A stretch of DNA of 33,949 nucleotides from Chthoniobacteraceae bacterium (GTDB taxonomy: Bacteria; Verrucomicrobiota; Verrucomicrobiia; Chthoniobacterales; Chthoniobacteraceae): contig CANJNZ010000050.1 of NCBI GenBank assembly GCA_947476045.1, positions 1-33,949 on the forward strand. Direction: 5' to 3'. The notes beneath the pieces are model-generated. The model worked only from the letters and a program-made list of their open reading frames with translations, was not told the origin of the DNA and ran no database searches. The stretch's first letter is position 1. The number at the start of each line of letters is the position of its first letter. Shown in pieces: positions 11,504-28,270 of the stretch. The position numbers and the translations under genes are program-made.

Positions 11504-13990
11504 ATGATGAACAACTTCACGCCGCGCGCGCAGCAAGTTCTGGCTCTGGCCAGAAAAGAAGCCGACCGTTTCAACCACAACTACGTGGGCACCGAGCATC
11601 TCCTGCTTGGGCTCATCAAGCTTGGCCAGGGCGTCGCGGTAAATGTGCTGCAAAAGATGGGCCTCGATCTCGAAACCGTCCGCATGGAAGTCGAGAAGCA
11701 AGTCGGCAGCGGGCCGGACCAGAAAATGGTCGGCAACATTCCTTACACGCCACGCGTGAAGAAGGTGCTCGCCCTCGCCGGCAAAGAGGCGAAGGCGCTG
11801 AGCCATTCCTACGTGGGCACCGAACACATCCTACTCGGTTTGCTGCGCGAGGGAGAAGGCGTCGCAGCGCGCGTGTTGAAAAATCTCGAAGTGGACATCG
11901 AGCGCACGCGCAATGAAATCCTCAAGGAACTCGATCCGAATTTCGCGCCCCCGGAAGGCGAGCAGGATGCTCCGCAGGAAGCACCAGCCGGTGGCAGCAA
12001 GAAAGACGGCAAGACGCCTGCCCTGCGCGCTTTTGGCCGCGACCTCACGGAGCTGGCGAAAAAAGGCGACATGGATCCTGTGATCGGTCGTGCGAACGAA
12101 ATCGAGCGCGTCATCCAAATCCTCTGCCGCCGCACGAAGAACAATCCCGTGCTCATCGGCGAAGCTGGCGTCGGCAAAACCGCAATCGTCGAAGGTCTCG
12201 CACAGGAAATCGCATCCGGCAACGTGCCCGAGCTTTTGCGCGACAAAAAAGTCATCACACTCGACCTCGCCCTCATGGTCGCCGGCACGAAATATCGCGG
12301 CCAGTTCGAGGAGCGCATCAAGGCCGTGATGGATGAAATCCGCCGCACAAAGAACGTCATCCTCTTCATTGATGAGATGCACACCATCGTCGGCGCAGGC
12401 AGTGCGGAGGGCGCGATGGACGCGAGCAATATCCTTAAGCCCGCGCTTTCCCGTGGAGAGCTGCAATGCGTCGGCGCAACCACGCTCAACGAATTCCGCA
12501 AACACATCGAGAAGGACGCAGCACTCGAACGCCGCTTCCAGCAGGTGAAAGTGGAAGCACCGAGCGTCACGGACACCGTGCTCATTTTGAAAGGCATCCG
12601 CCACAAATACGAAGCGCACCACAAGGCACGCATCACCGACGAAGCGCTGCAAGCCGCCGCCGAACTGAGCGACCGTTACCTCACTGGCCGCTTCCTGCCG
12701 GACAAGGCGATAGACGTGATGGACGAAGCCGGCTCCCGCGCTCGCATCGCCTCGATGACCCGCCCGCCGGACATCAAGGACATCGAAAAAGAAATCGAAG
12801 CCATCAAGGCGCAAAAAGAAGGCGCGATCAAAGCGCAGGACTTTGAAAAAGCCGCCGCGCTCCGCGACACGGAGAAGCAGGCGAAGGATCGCAAAGACGC
12901 CGTGATCAAAGACTGGGAAAAGAAGCGCGAAGAAAAAGATATCGTCGTCACCGAGGACGATATGCGCGTCGTCGTCGCCAAATGGACAGGCGTGCCGCTC
13001 CATCGCATGGAGCAGGCGGACAACGAAAAACTTCTGCGCATGGAAGGCGAACTGCGCGACAAGGTCATCGGCCAGAGCGAAGCAGTCGTCGCCGTCGCAA
13101 AAGCGCTGCGCCGCTCGCGTGCTGATCTCAAAGACCCACGCCGCCCGATTGGTGCGTTCATTTTCCTAGGCCCGACCGGCGTGGGCAAAACCTACCTCGC
13201 GCAGACGCTCGCCGAATACATGTTCGGCGACCGCGACTCGCTCATCCAAATTGACATGAGCGAATACCGCGAAGAGCACACCATCTCGCGCCTCGTCGGT
13301 TCGCCTCCCGGATACATCGGCCACGAGGAAGGAGGCCAGCTCACCGAGCAGGTTCGTCGTCGTCCGTATTCCGTCGTGCTGTTCGACGAGATCGAAAAAG
13401 CGCACCCGAACGTCCTGCACCTGCTCCTGCAAGTGCTGGAAGAGGGCAAGCTCACCGACGCGCTCGGACGCAAAATTGATTTCCGCAACACCATCATCAT
13501 CCTCACGACCAACATCGGCGCGGAGCAGATGAAGCGCACCAGCATGGGCTTCGGTGCCACGAAGGAAGACGGCAGCTACGACGCGCTGAAAAGCAAGGTC
13601 ATGGTTGAGGCGAAAAAGATGCTCAAACCCGAGTTCATCAATCGCTTTGACGACCTCATCGTCTTCCACCAGCTCGCGAAAGAAGACCTGCACAAGATCG
13701 TGGACCTCGAAGTCGCCAAGCTCACCGAGCGCGTCCGACAGAAAAACATCAAGCTCGTGCTCGACGACGGCGCGCGAGATTTCCTCATCGAAAAAGGCTA
13801 CGACCCTGCATACGGCGCGCGTCCGCTCCGTCGTGCGGTGGAAAAATATATCGAAGACCCGCTCGCCGAGGAGTTGCTCAAAGGCACGATCAAGTCAGGC
13901 GACACAGCCAGCGTGAGCGCTACGAAAGATGGCCTCGTCTTCAACGCGCCCACTGGAAGCGCGGAGACAGAAACAATTGTTGCCAAGTAG
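11504..13990 (+). CDS. clpC: ATP-dependent Clp protease ATP-binding subunit ClpC
   Basis: The 828-residue AAA+ unfoldase feeds substrates to ClpP. Domains in order: two Clp_N repeats (about 4-56 and 80-135, both with YVGTEH(L/I)LLGL); AAA-1 with Walker A GEAGVGKT (219-226) and FIDEMHT; a UVR-type coiled segment ([15 protein letters not shown]); AAA-2 with Walker A GPTGVGKT (about 555-562) and [10 protein letters not shown]; and the ClpB-type small domain near 740-810. A ClpP-binding loop is expected in AAA-2 (the GFGATKEDG region) but I could not confirm its tripeptide. No ctsR, mcsA or mcsB neighbours are present. The second ATG at 11507 is an alternative start. A strong terminator follows. 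Confidence 0.97.
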
Positions 13991-14115: not shown

Positions 14116-15114
14116 TTACAGCAACTCCGCGATCTGCACCGCATTCAGCGCAGCGCCTTTGAGGAGCTGATCGCCGACGACCCAGAATGCGAGTGCGTTA
14201 TCCAGCGCGCAATCCATGCGGATGCGACCGACCTGACAGTTGTCACGCTCAGCCACATTGAGCGGAAGCGGGTAAGTGTTGCTCTTTGGATCGTCCACGA
14301 TGTCGAGGCCCGGAGCTTTCGCCAGCGCTGCGCGTGCAGCTTCGACACTGATTGGTTTTTCAAACTCCGCTGTGACAGCAACCGAGTGCGCGCGATACAC
14401 GGGCACACGCACGCAAGTGACCGAAGCGCGGAACGACGGATGGTGCATGATGCGACGCCCTTCATGCTGCATTTTCATCTCTTCCTTTGTGTAGCCGCTA
14501 TCGAGGAAGCTATCCACATGAGGGAGCACATTGAACGCGATCTGATGCGGATACACCTTCGACACCACAGGGCGTCCTTCCGAAATTGCAGCGACTTGCG
14601 CGCGCAACTCCTCGATGGCCTGCGCGCCAGTTCCGCTCACCGCCTGATAGCTGGATGCGATGACACGCTTCACACCAAATGCTTGATGGAGCGGCCACAA
14701 AGCCATGAGCGTAATCGCCGTCGTGCAGTTGGGATTCGCGATGATGCCACGGCTTGCCTTCACATCTGCGCCGTTGATTTCAGGCACCACGAGCGGCACG
14801 TCGGCATCCATGCGAAACGCCGAGGAATTATCCACGACGACCGCGCCCGCCTGCGTGGCGAAAGGCGCGAACTGCTTGGAGATCGAACCGCCTGCGCTGA
14901 AAAGCGCGACGTCTACTCCTGCAAAGGATTTTTCGGTTAGCTCCTCGATGACCACCTCACCGCCCTTGAATGGCAGCCGCTTGCCTGCCGATTTTGCCGA
15001 CGCGAGCAGTGTCAATTTCCCCACGGGAAAATTGCGCTTCTCAAGAGTCTTCATCATCTCGACTCCGACGGCTCCAGTGGCTCCAACGATGGCTACATGC
15101 AGGTTCTTACTCAT
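14116..15114 (-). CDS. asd: Aspartate-semialdehyde dehydrogenase
   Basis: The 332-residue enzyme reduces aspartyl phosphate to aspartate semialdehyde with NADPH, the branch point to lysine/diaminopimelate, threonine and methionine. The nucleotide-binding GATGAVG is at residues 11-17. The catalytic cysteine is Cys130 in IIANPNCTT. SYQAVSGTGAQA and the substrate-binding RVPVYRAHS with its histidine follow. Length is typical of the short bacterial class. The ATG at 15114 (MSKNLHVAIVG) is chosen over an upstream one at 15144 because the Rossmann strand begins at residue 4. It is read after pheT with 82 bases between, so cotranscription is possible. A lysine riboswitch is not visible in that space. 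Confidence 0.95.
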   Translation of the reverse strand: MSKNLHVAIVGATGAVGVEMMKTLEKRNFPVGKLTLLASAKSAGKRLPFKGGEVVIEELTEKSFAGVDVALFSAGGSISKQFAPFATQAGAVVVDNSSAFRMDADVPLVVPEINGADVKASRGIIANPNCTTAITLMALWPLHQAFGVKRVIASSYQAVSGTGAQAIEELRAQVAAISEGRPVVSKVYPHQIAFNVLPHVDSFLDSGYTKEEMKMQHEGRRIMHHPSFRASVTCVRVPVYRAHSVAVTAEFEKPISVEAARAALAKAPGLDIVDDPKSNTYPLPLNVAERDNCQVGRIRMDCALDNALAFWVVGDQLLKGAALNAVQIAELL

Positions 15115-19100: not shown

Positions 19101-19200
19101 ACGGAAAAATGGGCGCTGCCTTTGCCACAAGGAACGGGAAAAGGCACGAAAAGCTTTTGCCCTCCAAAACTCATGCCGCTCTTGCGAAGGAACGGCGCAT

Positions 19201-20953: not shown

Positions 20954-21586
20954 TCATAGAGGGGAAAATTCGGCGCGGTAGAGGCCGGCGGCGTTTGCCT
21001 CGCTGCGGCGAAAGGGAACGCCGAGCAGGCGGGTGAAAAGATCGGCCTCCAATTTGGCCACAAGCGGGTAGGCGTGGAGCACGTCGAGAAAAGGGCAGTG
21101 GTTTTCGATGATGCGCGTCCCGTTTTCCACGACAGCCATGTGGCCTTCTTTGTCCCGGAGTTTTGCGAGTGATTCGACGCGAGCAGTCAGGTTGTCCCCT
21201 GAAATGCGGGGCGCGTAATCCGCCGCCTTTTGATGCCAGACGAGCAGTAGCAATTTTTCCGGCGCAGCGGGGCCGAGGAGTTTTTTCGAGGCATCGAGGA
21301 TTTCTAGGGTGAGCGGGTTGCTCGCTGCGGGGAAAAGATCGTGGGCGCGTTCCGTGAGCCGGTAGAGCATCCTCGGGCGGCCTGTGGTGCTTTCAGGCCT
21401 TGGCTCGCGCCACGTGGCAAGCAGTCCGCGGCGGTCCAGTTCCACGCAGACTTCTTTGACGCCCATATATGACATGCCGAGAGCCTCGGCCAGCTCCGTG
21501 ACCGTGAGACCTTGTGTGCGTTTGAGCGCATTCACGATGCGCAACCGTGTGCCGGGTGCGATGGCGTGGAGGAGCTTTTGCGACAT
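20954..21586 (-). CDS. Winged-helix transcriptional regulator (ArsR/SufR-like)
   Basis: The 210-residue protein has an N-terminal winged helix at about residues 8-70 (NALKRTQGLTVTELAEALG, then MGVKEVCVELDRRGLL) and a wing rich in Arg/Pro. An effector-like C-terminal half has a C-terminal ENHCPFLDV segment and two further short segments reminiscent of SufR and related DeoR/ArsR-like proteins. SufR binds an iron-sulfur cluster through several cysteines, but only one suitable cysteine is visible here, so cluster binding is doubtful. It is divergent from the ECF sigma gene; the intergenic region is about 117 bases, so both may share control. Confidence 0.75.
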   Translation of the reverse strand: MSQKLLHAIAPGTRLRIVNALKRTQGLTVTELAEALGMSYMGVKEVCVELDRRGLLATWREPRPESTTGRPRMLYRLTERAHDLFPAASNPLTLEILDASKKLLGPAAPEKLLLLVWHQKAADYAPRISGDNLTARVESLAKLRDKEGHMAVVENGTRIIENHCPFLDVLHAYPLVAKLEADLFTRLLGVPFRRSEANAAGLYRAEFSPL

Positions 21587-21703
21587 GAGGGGGGAACATC
21601 AGACTTTCGCCGCACAATTTCCAACCTCCAATTTCAACATCGGCGGCAGGAGTCATTTTCCCCTCGCCGGGAATATCCCCCGCCCTGCACGCTCCCACCC
21701 GCA

Positions 21704-22249
21704 GTGAACCCCGATATCAATTTCCAACTTCTCGTGGACCGGCACTACGCCGCGCTCTACCGCTTCGGGCTCAGCCTCAGCGGCAGCACGGATGCAGCGT
21801 CGGACCTCGTGCAACAGACATTTTATCTCTGGGCGGAAAAGGGCCATCAACTCCGCGACGCGACGAAAGCGAAGTCGTGGCTCTTTACCACGCTCTATCG
21901 CGAATACCTCAGCACCTACCGCCGCAACGTGAAATTCCCGCACACCGAACTCGACGACACCACCGGCGATCTCCCGGTCATCGAGCCCGCCATGCTCGAT
22001 GAAATGGACGGCATCACAGTCGTCGCCGCACTCACACGTGTGGATGAAGTTTTCCGCGCGCCGCTCACGCTCTTCTACATCGAGCAACTCTCCTACAAAG
22101 AAATCGCGGACATGCTCGAAACGCCAATCGGCACCGTGATGTCGCGCCTCTCGCGTGGTAAAGAGCAGCTCCGCAAACTTCTCCTCGAAAACCACACGAC
22201 GACTGTGGAGAAAGTCGTGCAATTCCCTCAGAAAGGAGCCGCACAATGA
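21704..22249 (+). CDS. ECF-type RNA polymerase sigma factor
   Basis: The 181-residue protein has region 2 (about 8-75, with DRHYAALYRFGLSL and SDLVQQTFYLWAE) and region 4 (about 105-160, with the helix-turn-helix YKEIADMLETPIGTVMSRL). It lacks region 3, as ECF factors do. No ATG is available near the beginning of the conserved sequence; the frame has a GTG at 21704 (VNPDINFQLL) that fits, so this start is inferred. The stop overlaps the next start by 4 bases (ATGA), typical of a sigma/anti-sigma pair. Target promoters were not found. Confidence 0.85.
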   Translation: MNPDINFQLLVDRHYAALYRFGLSLSGSTDAASDLVQQTFYLWAEKGHQLRDATKAKSWLFTTLYREYLSTYRRNVKFPHTELDDTTGDLPVIEPAMLDEMDGITVVAALTRVDEVFRAPLTLFYIEQLSYKEIADMLETPIGTVMSRLSRGKEQLRKLLLENHTTTVEKVVQFPQKGAAQ

Positions 22250-23061
22250 GCAACGAAACCAAACTCCTCCTCAGCGCCCGCCGCCCCGGTGGCCACGACG
22301 ATGCCGACCCCGCAATCGCCGAAGCACTCGCCCGCGCCAAGGCCGACCCCGCCCTTTCTGCGTGGGTGGAAGAGCAACAACGCACCGATGCCGCGCTCGC
22401 TCTCAAGCTGCTCAGCGTGCAGCCACCAGCCGGTCTGCGTGAAACAATCCTGACAGGAGGAAAAGTCAGCCGTCGCGGCTGGCGCACATGGTTCGAACAG
22501 AAGGCGTGGAAAAGTTTCACCAACAGCGAGATGATCGCAGCAGTAGCAGTGGCGGTCGTATTCCTCATCGCGGCTATTTTTGGAAATAACGAACCCCGTA
22601 ACTGGCAGAGCGCTGGCGCTCTCGAAGTTGCCCGCATCGAAAATACACAGCGCGAATTGGATCACGTCGTGGGCAGCATGGACGAAATCCGGATCTGGCT
22701 CGCCAGGCAAACATGCCCCGCGCCAGCAACGCTGCCCGTGCAAGTGCAGGGGCTTCCAATTTATGGCTGCGCCAAAATGAACTGGCGCGGCCAGCCCATG
22801 AGCATCGTGTGTTTCAATCTGGGCGGCGGTCGTGAAGTCCATCTCGTCACCATCGAAAGCCAGAACCTCCCGGCCGCACCGCCGGAGGGCACTCCCGAAT
22901 ACGCCACCATCAACGGCTACATGACCGCGAGTTGGAACGAGGGCGATGTAGCGATGATGCTCATCGGTAAAGTTGAGCGCGCGGATTTGGAAAAACTGTT
23001 CGTAGCAAGCGCAAAAGCGGCGCTTCAAATCCACGTTCAAAAACTTCTGGCCGCACGCTGA
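22246..23061 (+). CDS. Membrane-anchored anti-sigma-like protein
   Basis: The 271-residue protein has a cytoplasmic N-terminal part (about 1-92), one membrane helix (about 96-113, MIAAVAVAVVFLIAAIF) and a large outer domain. The outer domain contains three cysteines (157, 175 and 189) in short segments QTCPAP, IYGCAKM and IVCFNLGG. The start overlaps the ECF stop, so it is translationally coupled to that gene and is probably its anti-sigma factor. No zinc-binding HxxxCxxC motif is seen in the N-terminal half, so it is not a ZAS type. A cysteine-containing outer domain followed by a disulfide reductase gene suggests redox sensing; this is inferred. Confidence 0.7.
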   Translation: MSNETKLLLSARRPGGHDDADPAIAEALARAKADPALSAWVEEQQRTDAALALKLLSVQPPAGLRETILTGGKVSRRGWRTWFEQKAWKSFTNSEMIAAVAVAVVFLIAAIFGNNEPRNWQSAGALEVARIENTQRELDHVVGSMDEIRIWLARQTCPAPATLPVQVQGLPIYGCAKMNWRGQPMSIVCFNLGGGREVHLVTIESQNLPAAPPEGTPEYATINGYMTASWNEGDVAMMLIGKVERADLEKLFVASAKAALQIHVQKLLAAR

Positions 23062-23096
23062 CCGCGCAAATCACGCACACCACTTTACCAAACATC

Positions 23097-25238
23097 ATGT
23101 TCAAACGACTCACGTTCCTTTTCATAGCCGCTGCTCTCATCCTCACTGCGAGCGCACAGAAAGATTCCGAAGGAAAAATCATCTCCGAGCCCGTCATCGT
23201 CGCTGACACCACAGCATTCACGCCCGGCAAAGCATTCACCGTTGGCATTCACTTCAAGCTCGCGATTGGCTGGCATCTTTACTGGCAATGGCCCGGCAGC
23301 GTCGGCAAGCCGCTCACCATCGAGTGGGAACTGCCCGATGGCTGGAAAGTAGACGACATTCAGTGGCCGCTGCCCGAGTTGCTGACAGACGGCGAGGGAG
23401 GTAAGTTTTACGGCTACGAACACGAAGTCGTCTTTCCCGTCGTCATTACGCCCGGAGAAAAGCCGACGAGCGGCAGCGCAAAGATCACCGCGAAACTCGA
23501 CTGGCTTGCCTGCAAAACAGAATGTGTCCCGGGCAAAGCGAACGTAACAGTGAGCCTGCCATCTGGTGTGCCCGCACCAGCCAATGCCGAGCTGTTCACA
23601 AAGTGGCGTGCACAGCTTCCGCAAAACAGCACCGCTCCCACGCAGGATGTAAAAGTCAGTTCCGTCGGCAAGCAACTCAGCGTCCGCGTCGGCGGACTCG
23701 ACAAGACACTCGGCGTGGAATTTTTTCCTCTGCCGCCCGCGAATTTCTCCGGCAACTTCGACTACGGCTCAAAGCTCGCGACCGAAACCAACCCCGACGG
23801 AGCACGCACTTTTTCCTACAAATTTGAAAGCGACCTGCCCGGATGGGGCGGCTTGCTCGTCGTAAAAGACGCGGACGGCGTGAGGCGCGGCTGGTATGTC
23901 GGCGGGGAAAACTCGGGAGCCGCTGGCGGAGCACAATCAACCGCGCAGAAAAAGTCCGATGAAATCGTCGGCGACGACGGCGGCTGGAATCCCTTCGACG
24001 ACATCGCGAAGGACATCGCCAGCAAACAATCCTCCAGCTTTCTCGCGCTGCTGCTGCAAGGCTTTCTCGGCGGTCTGCTACTCAATCTGATGCCCTGCGT
24101 GCTACCCGTCATCAGTCTGAAGATCTTCGGCTTTCTCCAGCAGGCGGGCGAAGCGAAAGACCGCGTTTTCAAGCTTGGTCTCGCATTTTGCGCCGGCGTG
24201 TTTGCGTTCTTCATGATTCTCGCAGTCGCCATCGTTGCGCTCGCTTCGTTTGGAAAAACACTCGGCTGGGGCGAGCAGTTTTCCAATCCGCTGCTGCTCA
24301 CCGCCATGCTCGGCATCGTGTTCCTTTTCGGACTGAGCTTGCTGGGTGTTTTCGAAATCACGCTCGGTGGTGGCGCGTCATCAAAGCTCAGCGAACTCTC
24401 CTCAAAGGAAGGCCCCGGGGGCGCATTCATGCACGGACTTTTCACCACACTGCTCGGCACGAGTTGCACCGCTCCGCTCGTCGGGCCGGTCATCGGCACG
24501 GCGATCACACGCCCCGGCGCGGAGGTCTTCGCGCTCTTCGCTGCCATCGCCACGGGACTTTCGCTCCCGTATTTTCTGCTCACATGGAAGCCCGCCTGGA
24601 TGCGCTATCTGCCCAAACCCGGCACATGGATGGTGCGCTTCAAGCAAGTGCTCGGCTTCGTGATGCTCGGTCTTGTCGTATGGCTTCTCGGATCGCTCCC
24701 CGCCATATCCGCCATCGTCATGGCCGCATCATTTCTGCTAGTGCTCGGCTTTGGTGCGTGGCTGCTCGGCACGTATCACGACTCACGCTGGGCGCTGCCT
24801 TTCACCATCACACTCGCAGTCGGCGGCTGGTTTCTTTTTGTGCAGGGGAAAGTGAACGTCACAGCAGAAACCAGCGCTGCGGAAGGGACGAATGCCGAGG
24901 GTATCAATTGGGAGCCCTTCTCCATCCCGCGCATTCGCGAAGCACTTGAAGCCGGACAGCCTGTCTTCGTGGATTTCACCGCGAAGTGGTGCCTCAACTG
25001 CAAGGCCTACGAAAACCTCGTCATCAACACTGCGCCCGTCACTGCTGCACTCAAAGCGAAGAACGTCGTCACCATCCGCGCCGACTACACCAACCGTCCG
25101 GCGGTGATTGATGCACAGTTGAAAAAATGTGGCCGCGCAGGCGTTCCGCTCTACGTGCTCTTCCGCAAACGCGGTGACTACTGGCTCGCCGACGGACTCA
25201 CTCAGAGCGCACTGCTGGAGCAACTCAACAAACCCTAG
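23097..25238 (+). CDS. Thiol:disulfide interchange protein, DsbD/ScsB type
   Basis: The 713-residue membrane protein moves electrons from cytoplasmic thioredoxin to the envelope. Order: signal peptide (1-20); DsbD-alpha-like domain with a Cys-x3-Cys pair in WLACKTECVPG; a central membrane domain of about eight helices (300-580) with LMPCVLPVISLK and GTSCTAPLVG, each carrying one of the pair of buried cysteines; and a C-terminal thioredoxin-like domain with KWCLNCKAY (Cys632 and Cys635) and a cis-proline-type GVP near 683. This is the full DsbD arrangement. It lies 35 bases after the anti-sigma-like gene, so it is probably part of the ECF-controlled operon. The stop overlaps that of the sensor kinase as CTAG. 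Confidence 0.9.
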   Translation: MFKRLTFLFIAAALILTASAQKDSEGKIISEPVIVADTTAFTPGKAFTVGIHFKLAIGWHLYWQWPGSVGKPLTIEWELPDGWKVDDIQWPLPELLTDGEGGKFYGYEHEVVFPVVITPGEKPTSGSAKITAKLDWLACKTECVPGKANVTVSLPSGVPAPANAELFTKWRAQLPQNSTAPTQDVKVSSVGKQLSVRVGGLDKTLGVEFFPLPPANFSGNFDYGSKLATETNPDGARTFSYKFESDLPGWGGLLVVKDADGVRRGWYVGGENSGAAGGAQSTAQKKSDEIVGDDGGWNPFDDIAKDIASKQSSSFLALLLQGFLGGLLLNLMPCVLPVISLKIFGFLQQAGEAKDRVFKLGLAFCAGVFAFFMILAVAIVALASFGKTLGWGEQFSNPLLLTAMLGIVFLFGLSLLGVFEITLGGGASSKLSELSSKEGPGGAFMHGLFTTLLGTSCTAPLVGPVIGTAITRPGAEVFALFAAIATGLSLPYFLLTWKPAWMRYLPKPGTWMVRFKQVLGFVMLGLVVWLLGSLPAISAIVMAASFLLVLGFGAWLLGTYHDSRWALPFTITLAVGGWFLFVQGKVNVTAETSAAEGTNAEGINWEPFSIPRIREALEAGQPVFVDFTAKWCLNCKAYENLVINTAPVTAALKAKNVVTIRADYTNRPAVIDAQLKKCGRAGVPLYVLFRKRGDYWLADGLTQSALLEQLNKP

Positions 25239-27325: not shown

Positions 27326-28165
27326 CTAATGCTGTAGCGAAACCGCGATGCGGATGGACTTCGGTTTTCCCTCCGTGAGCCAGCCTTCCGGCGTTTGCAA
27401 GATGCCGACCACCTGTTTTGGCAGCGGTTTTCGGAAATACTCGGATATCGTCTGCGTAAGCACAAACTCCCCCTCCCCTTTCGTCAGCAATTCCGGCTTA
27501 TTCGGGTCAATCAGCCCGTCTTCGGTGAAAAACGTCACACTTTTCACCGAAGAAAAATGAGCTTTAGCCGCCGGAGTCACCGGCTTGATGCGCATCACAA
27601 CTTCCCCGTTCTTGTGCGTCACCTCCACATTCCAGTCGCTCGACTGCTTTGCCACGCTCGCCCTGCTTTCCTCAAACATCTTCGCCCGGCGCCCATCATG
27701 CGGAGCCTCCCTATCGCTCACTGGCAACTCGATGCTTAGTTCCTTGAAGCCCGGATTGCAGTCGCGCCCACAGCACATCCAGCGCGCCTTTCCTTCGAGT
27801 TTCACAATCTTCCCCGGAAGCAAGTTTTTCGGTGGCGTGATGCACATCGGCAGCAACTTCTCGCCATGAAAACCCTGCGCCTTGATTTGAAACATAAACA
27901 CTCGCTCCGGCTCCGGCCACTCGATGGGGTCGGCTTTCCAGCCCTTCGGCAGCTTCCACTCCATCGCCGTGGGGATGCCCACGATGCCGGTATATTTCCA
28001 GTAAGTGTGATACCCTCGCGGATGCTCCAGATGTAGCCCGACGTAGAAAGGCTTGCCCGGCTGTATGGATGTCACCTCGGAAACCAACTCAATGCTCAGC
28101 GGATTTTCCACGGCAAAGCCCGTCGCTGCAAAAAAACTAAGCGCGATGAAAGCGATGTATCTCAT
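27326..28165 (-). CDS. Secreted DsbD N-terminal-domain protein (stand-alone)
   Basis: The 279-residue protein has a signal peptide (FIALSFFAATGFA) followed by one DsbD-alpha-like domain. It is collinear with residues 20-160 of the DsbD protein at 23097: PGKPFYVGLHLEHPRGYHTYW against PGKAFTVGIHFKLAIGWHLYW, and the pattern WKLPKGWKADPIEWPEPE. It retains the Cys-x3-Cys-like pair (WMCCGRDCNPG) but has neither membrane domain nor thioredoxin domain. Such stand-alone proteins could carry electrons from DsbD to periplasmic substrates. The ATG at 28165 (MRYIAFIAL) has an AAGGTGAC sequence just upstream. It lies close to the kinase gene on the same strand. Confidence 0.8.
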   Translation of the reverse strand: MRYIAFIALSFFAATGFAVENPLSIELVSEVTSIQPGKPFYVGLHLEHPRGYHTYWKYTGIVGIPTAMEWKLPKGWKADPIEWPEPERVFMFQIKAQGFHGEKLLPMCITPPKNLLPGKIVKLEGKARWMCCGRDCNPGFKELSIELPVSDREAPHDGRRAKMFEESRASVAKQSSDWNVEVTHKNGEVVMRIKPVTPAAKAHFSSVKSVTFFTEDGLIDPNKPELLTKGEGEFVLTQTISEYFRKPLPKQVVGILQTPEGWLTEGKPKSIRIAVSLQH

Positions 28166-28270
28166 GTCACCTTCCACCCTGCGCATCCCGCGCAATCTTA
28201 CAATCCATCTCCCGCGTCGCTTTAAAATACTCGCTTGCTGCGAGCGCCTCATCCCACTGCACTGCAACCC

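Follow-up and report, generated by a model that had tools for sequence, protein, structure and literature searches.

What signal might an extracytoplasmic function (ECF) sigma factor answer to when its gene is followed by the genes of a cysteine-bearing membrane anti-sigma protein and of DsbD, and which genes would it serve? The question is raised by positions 21,704 to 25,238 of a 33,949-nucleotide stretch (the window; contig CANJNZ010000050.1, C50 in our numbering) of a Chthoniobacteraceae bacterium, phylum Verrucomicrobiota, whose genome measures 4.37 Mb and is 96.8% complete. A preliminary description proposed that oxidised envelope thiols release the sigma factor, which makes DsbD, which in turn resets the sensor. 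Our analysis partly supports that interpretation, and the finding is larger than described. The whole is best explained by an autoregulated ECF sigma/anti-sigma switch for cell-envelope oxidative damage, a reading to which we assign a probability of about 0.72. The operon, the promoter, the predicted regulon and the conservation are supported by sequence; the signal (thiol oxidation or a thiophilic metal), the use made of the cysteines and the release step we infer.

The operon and its promoter

Two sets of related loci were compared. Set 1 comprises the window and 80 loci picked by anti-sigma similarity, 60 of them taken from a longer match list; since the anti-sigma itself was the selection query, this set is biased towards conserved anti-sigma residues. 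Set 2 comprises the window and the best 80 of 439 sigma relatives, picked by sigma similarity alone. The sets overlap by at least 12 shared contigs (e.g., L031/L142, L033/L144, L032/L145, L034/L146, as well as L044/L147, L097/L154, L035/L188 and L036/L205), and gene calls in the related loci come from our own script, so that starts may be off. The features of the locus are as follows.

21670..21697, + strand: predicted sigma promoter (GGAATA at 21670-21675, 16-base spacer, CTCCCA at 21692-21697), from motif counts over related sigma genes
21704..22249, + strand: ECF sigma gene, GTG start, 181 aa; Sigma70_r2 and Sigma70_r4_2 above curated cut-offs
22246..23061, + strand: one-helix anti-sigma gene, ATG start, 271 aa; place behind sigma in 80 of 81 loci, weak N-terminal NCBIfam anti-sigma matches
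22246..22527, + strand: cytoplasmic, presumably sigma-binding part of the anti-sigma, residues 1-94; AlphaFold2 model, sub-threshold DUF3379 similarity in relatives
22528..22581, + strand: predicted membrane helix of the anti-sigma, residues 95-112, EMIAAVAVAVVFLIAAIF; AlphaFold2 model
22582..23058, + strand: predicted outer (extracytoplasmic) domain of the anti-sigma, residues 113-271; AlphaFold2 model, RseB/MucB-like fold
22714..22716, + strand: codon C157, conserved only in the nearest relatives; alignments of sets 1 and 2
22768..22770, + strand: codon C175, conserved, predicted strand 1; alignments of sets 1 and 2, model
22810..22812, + strand: codon C189, conserved, predicted strand 2; alignments of sets 1 and 2, model
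22840..22842, + strand: codon H199, conserved in most rows, predicted strand 3; alignments of sets 1 and 2, model
23097..25238, + strand: DsbD gene, 713 aa; DsbD_N, DsbD_TM and Thioredoxin_7 above cut-offs, cysteine pairs

Coordinates and Pfam domains confirmed the ATGA overlap of the sigma and anti-sigma genes and the start of the DsbD gene 35 bases further on. The sigma protein has the regions sigma2 and sigma4 only (PF04542 and PF08281, both above cut-off), as expected of an ECF sigma; the closest structures in the PDB are those of SigH and SigE, and among the matches listed its closest relative (93% identity) comes from an uncultured Spartobacteria bin, followed by other Verrucomicrobiota bins. 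The DsbD protein carries all three Pfam domains and cysteines 139/143, 334/457 and 632/635 among others, and the NCBIfam DsbD model matched it below its strict cut-off (132.5 vs 330 bits). In the source genome PF04542 gave 14 matching rows (two apparently parts of one gene), DsbD_TM matched the DsbD of the window alone, and the anti-sigma profile likewise had a single match. An anti-sigma of this family stands behind the sigma gene in 80 of the 81 sigma-selected loci, L206 lacking it; the pairing is thus nearly fixed, more than chance would give.

Counting paired four-letter words upstream of the sigma genes revealed the motif GGAATA-N16/17-CTC. Within 200 bases upstream, GGAATA-N15-17-CTC occurs at 54 of 81 sigma starts and at 15 of 584 other genes in the same loci (Fisher p 5e-45; mean 0.08 of 81 in letter-shuffled sequence), two of the latter 15 being bufferin-peptide genes. 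Of the 54 motif-bearing sigma genes, 44 have 8-14 bases between the end of the CTC and the start codon; in the window this distance is 9 bases, a position that supports the autoregulation proposed for this locus. For the -10 element the gap is 8-11 bases in 40 of the 54 genes and, given this nearness, the sigma mRNAs are probably leaderless. Elsewhere in the window the motif was matched at 13372 (minus strand, within a gene) and, in a relaxed form, at 1153 (minus strand). A promoter shared with other thiol genes of the window had also been considered; the motif lies upstream of 21704, but none was found before the thiol genes near 28165 and 9950.

The predicted regulon and the place of DsbD

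Genomes were searched with the strict pattern GGAATAN{15,17}CTCYYA, with the reversed pattern as control. The source genome contains five strict matches, against one for the reversed pattern; four precede the genes of the sigma factor, MsrA, MsrB and a thioredoxin (WCPPC), and the fifth has no gene start nearby. The N-termini of MsrA, MsrB and the thioredoxin look signal-like, as judged by eye. MsrA, MsrB and the TrxB of the congeners treated below score above NCBIfam cut-offs, and the thioredoxin, for which the ResA/DsbE models remain below cut-off, has Pfam thioredoxin domains and also matches the thioredoxin part of the fused MsrA/MsrB model.

The comparison was extended to ten genomes of the genus, five of which have the system (G000, G001, G002, G009 and G006; the G006 contig begins inside the anti-sigma gene, and its sigma gene was not found). 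These five yielded 18 matches, 4 before sigma genes, 11 before genes for MsrA (3), MsrB (3), thioredoxin (3) or thioredoxin reductase (2, in two congeners) and 3 elsewhere; the five genomes in which neither protein was found gave 4 matches, one of them relevant (Fisher p 0.046, in a small comparison). Summed over the ten genomes, 22 matches stand against 8 for the reversed pattern. MsrA bears the strict motif in 3 of the 5 genomes with the system and in none of the 5 without it, one of the two G003 copies being motif-free. Seven genomes of other families gave 29 strict matches, and 11 of these precede genes for sigma, a bufferin peptide, DoxX, MsrA, MsrB, TrxB or DUF1223. We consider that the sigma targets, together with DsbD, form a predicted regulon for envelope methionine-sulfoxide and thiol repair, its members being motif predictions; elsewhere in Verrucomicrobiota the regulon would add, by motif or operon, bufferin-type clusters, DoxX and DUF1223. 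The envelope thiol-redox role suggested earlier is supported by this predicted set of MsrA, MsrB, thioredoxin, TrxB and DsbD. In another genome, a strict motif lies 49 bases before a further sigma-like gene (L277; G241:C26:56021), and the system may therefore feed a second sigma there.

DsbD is not the usual operon partner that it might seem from the window: it follows the pair immediately in 5 of the 81 sigma-selected loci, and these are the window and every locus with at least 71% sigma identity. A natural deletion nevertheless suggests that dsbD belongs to the sigma promoter. In G007 (L236, L279; G007:C20, promoter at 14364) the sigma and anti-sigma genes were not found, and the start of dsbD lies 36 bases downstream of where a GGAATA-N16-CTC promoter begins. 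In a comparison with G002 the two flanks show 91% and 94% identity, and the segment encoding both regulators is absent, which suggests that the promoter of dsbD in G007 corresponds to the sigma promoter in G002. Hence, dsbD can persist without the pair, although the gap is possibly an assembly error of a draft genome. For the M50 protease gene at 19109, previously named as a possible release protease, tblastn (E 1e-5) of the flanking sequence fetched for 80 related loci gave no match, and its nearness is therefore probably due to chance.

Several further neighbours may be recorded. In the window, 27326-28186 (minus strand) encodes a second protein with the DsbD N-terminal domain (PF11412) only; it has relatives of 79-81% identity near the corresponding locus in G001 and G006, and no promoter motif precedes its gene in the window. 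Divergent from the sigma gene lies that of a SufR-like regulator (20954-21586, minus strand; below cut-off), with a similar gene divergent from sigma in G001; because only two cysteines are present, it seemingly lacks the iron-sulfur cysteine cluster typical of SufR. In nine set-1 loci (L103, L116, L119, L121, L122, L123, L128, L131 and L140) the gene next after the anti-sigma belongs to one cluster, whose L103 member is YceI by Pfam; L116, L123 and L128 of this subgroup lack both C175 and C189 and have the motif within 1000 bases upstream. Behind the pair, L087, L098 and L153 encode a methyltransferase with ALCCPV(N/D/E)YD, with phosphate-transporter, DUF1223 or radical-SAM genes as neighbours, and clustering adds L091, L114, L159 and L192; as a guess, this context may mean that arsenic or another metalloid is a further stress. 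Near the pair of L157 and L181 there are genes, named by eye, for a TVP38-like membrane protein and a mercuric-reductase-like flavoprotein.

The anti-sigma protein and its conserved residues

The anti-sigma had been described as a protein with one membrane helix, cysteines at 157, 175 and 189 and no zinc motif, and this picture holds. AlphaFold2 was run on the window protein aligned with 73 relatives (74 of the 80 set-2 rows, six short or cut ones being left out), and gave a model with a mean pLDDT of 88.7 and ten-residue means of 77 to 97 in the outer domain. It predicts a single membrane helix at 95-112, with lower confidence at the helix start, cytoplasmic helices at 3-10, 22-33, 35-57, 64-76 and 83-90, and an outer domain that runs from two helices through six strands to a long C-terminal helix, in which C175 lies on strand 1 (172-180), C189 on strand 2 (183-193) and H199 on strand 3 (196-204). 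Redox anti-sigmas of the ZAS type bear the zinc motif HxxxCxxC. Since the only cysteines here are 157, 175 and 189, this motif is absent and the cytoplasmic half is free of cysteine, so that a ZAS protein is ruled out.

The protein also stands apart from the families that we compared it with. No Pfam family matched the window protein at E ≤1, and NCBIfam gave weak anti-sigma matches to its N-terminal half. Similarity to DUF3379, on which no paper was found in our literature search, appears at E ≤0.1 in 48 of the 74 family members; when ten members were scanned singly, seven matched, over the cytoplasmic half and helix with the outer half uncovered. All remained below the curated cut-off (best member 29.3 vs 33.2 bits) and the window protein was unmatched, hence we do not assign it to DUF3379. 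The NrsF/OsrA anti-sigma family (DUF1109, ECF16) was rejected, as there is one helix rather than six; NrsF is absent both from the matches of the window protein and from the 23 families matched by any of the 74 members (E ≤0.1).

Structure comparison of the model (Foldseek, VIA-align) ranked the C-terminal domain of RseB/MucB (PDB 2p4b, 2v42, 3m4w, 6jau) first for about residues 147-252. The top match has a Z of 8.4 over 89 residues at 3.1 A, and six RseB/MucB entries score 8.4 to 7.2 over 85-95 residues, with the next other protein at 5.8; the resemblance of the predicted domain is only suggestive, because the tool warns that a Z near 8 may mean a common arrangement. A search of the PDB sequences with the 74-row alignment (hmmsearch) found no relationship to RseB at E ≤1; its three matches were all at E 0.12 or worse and none was an anti-sigma. 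RseB is a protein of its own, unlike the domain described here, which is part of the anti-sigma.

Which of the residues are conserved? In set 1, 79 of 81 rows were used (L037, cut by a contig end, and L044, a short frame, were dropped). C175 and C189 are both present in 72 of the 79 rows (one of them, L124, doubtful, as it was kept despite a cut frame), and both occur together with the histidine in 70 of 79. All seven rows that lack cysteine have lost the two jointly, and six of these seven also lack H199. In set 2, where 80 rows were used, both cysteines are found in 71 of 80 and the full C-C-H in 64 of 80; the 80 rows include L147, a short frame without residues at the three positions, and L194, which has a cysteine displaced by one residue and was scored as without the pair. 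Some rows of this set have a single cysteine, and others have both cysteines without the histidine. C157 occurs in 4 of 79 and 5 of 80 rows, those of the window and its closest relatives. Thus, of the three cysteines proposed as a sensor, C175 and C189 are conserved across the phylum, as C175-x13-C189, usually with H199, while C157 is not. Across the phylum, the anti-sigma profile was matched in 85 of the 387 genomes sampled.

Candidate signals and comparable systems

Taken together, we propose that the one-helix anti-sigma keeps the sigma factor at the membrane until oxidants, or thiol-binding metals such as copper, hit its outer domain, most likely at C175/C189 near H199. The sigma factor, once released, would start transcription at GGAATA-N16-CTC promoters, both of its own operon, DsbD included, and of the unlinked genes for secreted MsrA, MsrB and thioredoxin and, in two congeners, TrxB. 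Electrons could flow from NADPH over TrxB, thioredoxin and DsbD to an envelope thioredoxin and further to MsrA/MsrB and oxidised thiols, a path that is general knowledge for these enzymes, and DsbD could also re-reduce the sensor.

Several observations weigh against this proposal. Relatives with one cysteine (L155, L160, L167, L170) or with neither (L116, L123, L128) keep the promoter, so the cysteine pair is dispensable for the system as such; H199 is absent beside an intact pair in L165, L203, L208, L213, L219, L168 and L189, which speaks against a single obligatory C-C-H metal site. If residues alternate strictly along the predicted strands, C175 and C189 would also face opposite ways, barring a bulge. 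As for the regulon, no strict motif precedes MsrA in G002 and G009, both of which hold the system, and in the seven genomes of other families 18 of the 29 matches, including all 3 in G195 and both in G344, are not before genes of the kinds named above, the reversed pattern giving 9 matches there. L155 (CALQJI020000047.1) is a contig labelled Klebsiella pneumoniae with a typical Verrucomicrobiota sigma locus, the bin being probably mislabelled.

It is possible, though we hold it somewhat doubtful, that the direct signal is copper or some other thiophilic metal, with C175, C189 and H199 binding Cu(I) or the like and the enzymes countering copper-catalysed oxidation. In five loci (L035, L097, L099, L109 and L126) a pair of like kind ends a co-directional bufferin-type operon in the order Cys-rich peptide, MNIO, DUF2063, DoxX, sigma, anti-sigma (MNIO being PF05114 at E <1e-103 in the three loci scanned, and the DUF2063 of L126 having been found by tblastn where the gene caller had placed an opposite-strand frame). 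Such genes lie near 9 of the 80 set-1 loci; in L043, from the window's own family, they are on one side of the pair and a convergent DsbD on the other. Bufferins are described as chelators of excess copper in PMC12452194, and the loss of H199 in six of the seven set-1 rows without cysteines would also suit a metal site. However, MNIO had no match in the source genome, at 96.8% completeness, which weakens a copper-only reading; two set-1 rows (L098, L124) have both cysteines and no histidine, and set 2 contains one group of that kind and another with C175 and the histidine but not C189. Moreover, the DoxX/COG3220/DUF2063 cluster is tied to hypochlorous acid (HOCl) and RpoE2 in Haemophilus (PMC7907618), and such genes therefore do not prove a metal signal. 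In L043, L049 and L132 the C-C-H outer domain is retained in an anti-sigma whose sigma partner is of a more distant type (28-30% identity over the aligned part in L043 and L049); L132, like L043, has bufferin genes nearby.

We regard it as rather unlikely that the cysteines form a structural disulfide and that the outer domain senses misfolded protein, lipid or a partner, the regulon answering general envelope damage. RseB, a separate periplasmic protein, senses signals of this sort, and the likeness of the predicted fold to its C-terminal domain, together with the joint loss of both cysteines in all the cysteine-lacking set-1 rows, would fit; single-cysteine relatives exist, however, and the motif-bearing genes recognised, largely by eye, concern methionine and thiol redox, bufferin/DoxX and DUF1223, with no protease or chaperone noticed among them. 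That the operon order is a coincidence, an ordinary ECF sigma with a housekeeping DsbD merely downstream, appears very improbable. DsbD does follow the pair rarely, and it also occurs in three genomes in which the pair was not found (G003, G004 and G005); yet the promoter motif of the sigma gene recurs before unlinked genes that belong to this pathway, and the dsbD of G007 sits directly on the counterpart of the G002 sigma promoter with the regulatory genes missing.

The proposed switch for envelope oxidative damage resembles, in its predicted target set, systems of Proteobacteria. EcfF/OsrA of Bradyrhizobium (group 16) is an autoregulated ECF sigma with a membrane anti-sigma; OsrA has two conserved cysteines, one reported to be needed for the H2O2 response, and the EcfF regulon includes, besides three methionine-sulfoxide reductases, a periplasmic thioredoxin anchored in the membrane and a membrane protein whose core domain is that of DsbD (PMC3420878). 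Our locus shares the ECF sigma with a membrane anti-sigma, the two conserved cysteines and, here as predictions, the autoregulation and the Msr/DsbD/thioredoxin targets; OsrA, in contrast, is a six-helix DUF1109 protein, whereas the window protein has one helix, an outer domain of ~160 residues and another cysteine spacing. Sigma-F of Caulobacter controls bufferin-type genes (DUF2282, DUF692, DUF2063), DoxX and a YedY-type reductase (PMC3511200). Conserved anti-sigma cysteines are common to our system, sigma-F/NrsF and BcrS/AbcS of Brucella (PMC8315932), and sigma-F has kinds of targets like those predicted here; NrsF, however, has six helices, and at least some of the promoter sites in PMC8315932 look like GTAA...CGAA rather than GGAATA-N16-CTC. 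The NrsF-type function, control of Msr and bufferin/DoxX genes, may extend to the Verrucomicrobiota, going by motif and operon evidence, the source genome itself having no MNIO match. RpoE2/HrsE of Haemophilus, compared with the SigE regulon of Neisseria, serves periplasmic MsrAB and a DoxX, COG3220, DUF2063 cluster linked to HOCl (PMC7907618), which are target kinds predicted here as well; HrsE is a cytoplasmic anti-sigma of 67 aa, unlike the membrane protein with a cysteine-free cytoplasmic half described here. Being neither a six-helix nor a small cytoplasmic protein, our anti-sigma may work like these systems while lying outside their anti-sigma families. Tentatively, and at a little less than even odds, we speculate that a Verrucomicrobiota-wide class of redox- or metal-sensing anti-sigmas, with an RseB-C-like outer domain bearing C-x13-C...H, independently took over the envelope methionine/thiol repair and bufferin regulon, which in Proteobacteria is governed by six-helix NrsF or by small cytoplasmic anti-sigmas, so that three different sensors serve one target set.

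Among the papers listed by our literature searches there was none on such a system in Verrucomicrobiota, and the string 'verrucomicrob' is absent from the MNIO survey PMC12452194. Envelope methionine-sulfoxide repair regulons under ECF sigmas have already been reported in Proteobacteria; here, a Verrucomicrobiota case is predicted together with its promoter code. GGAATA-N16-CTC provides a readable promoter for finding targets, and C175/C189 offer a candidate sensor site that can be tested, in a protein family unmatched in Pfam. Different anti-sigmas seemingly converge on the same targets, and oxidant repair appears to be linked with copper-binding peptides. In these bacteria the system may induce enzymes for the repair of oxidised proteins beyond the cell membrane, with the outer cysteine pair of the anti-sigma as its possible sensor.

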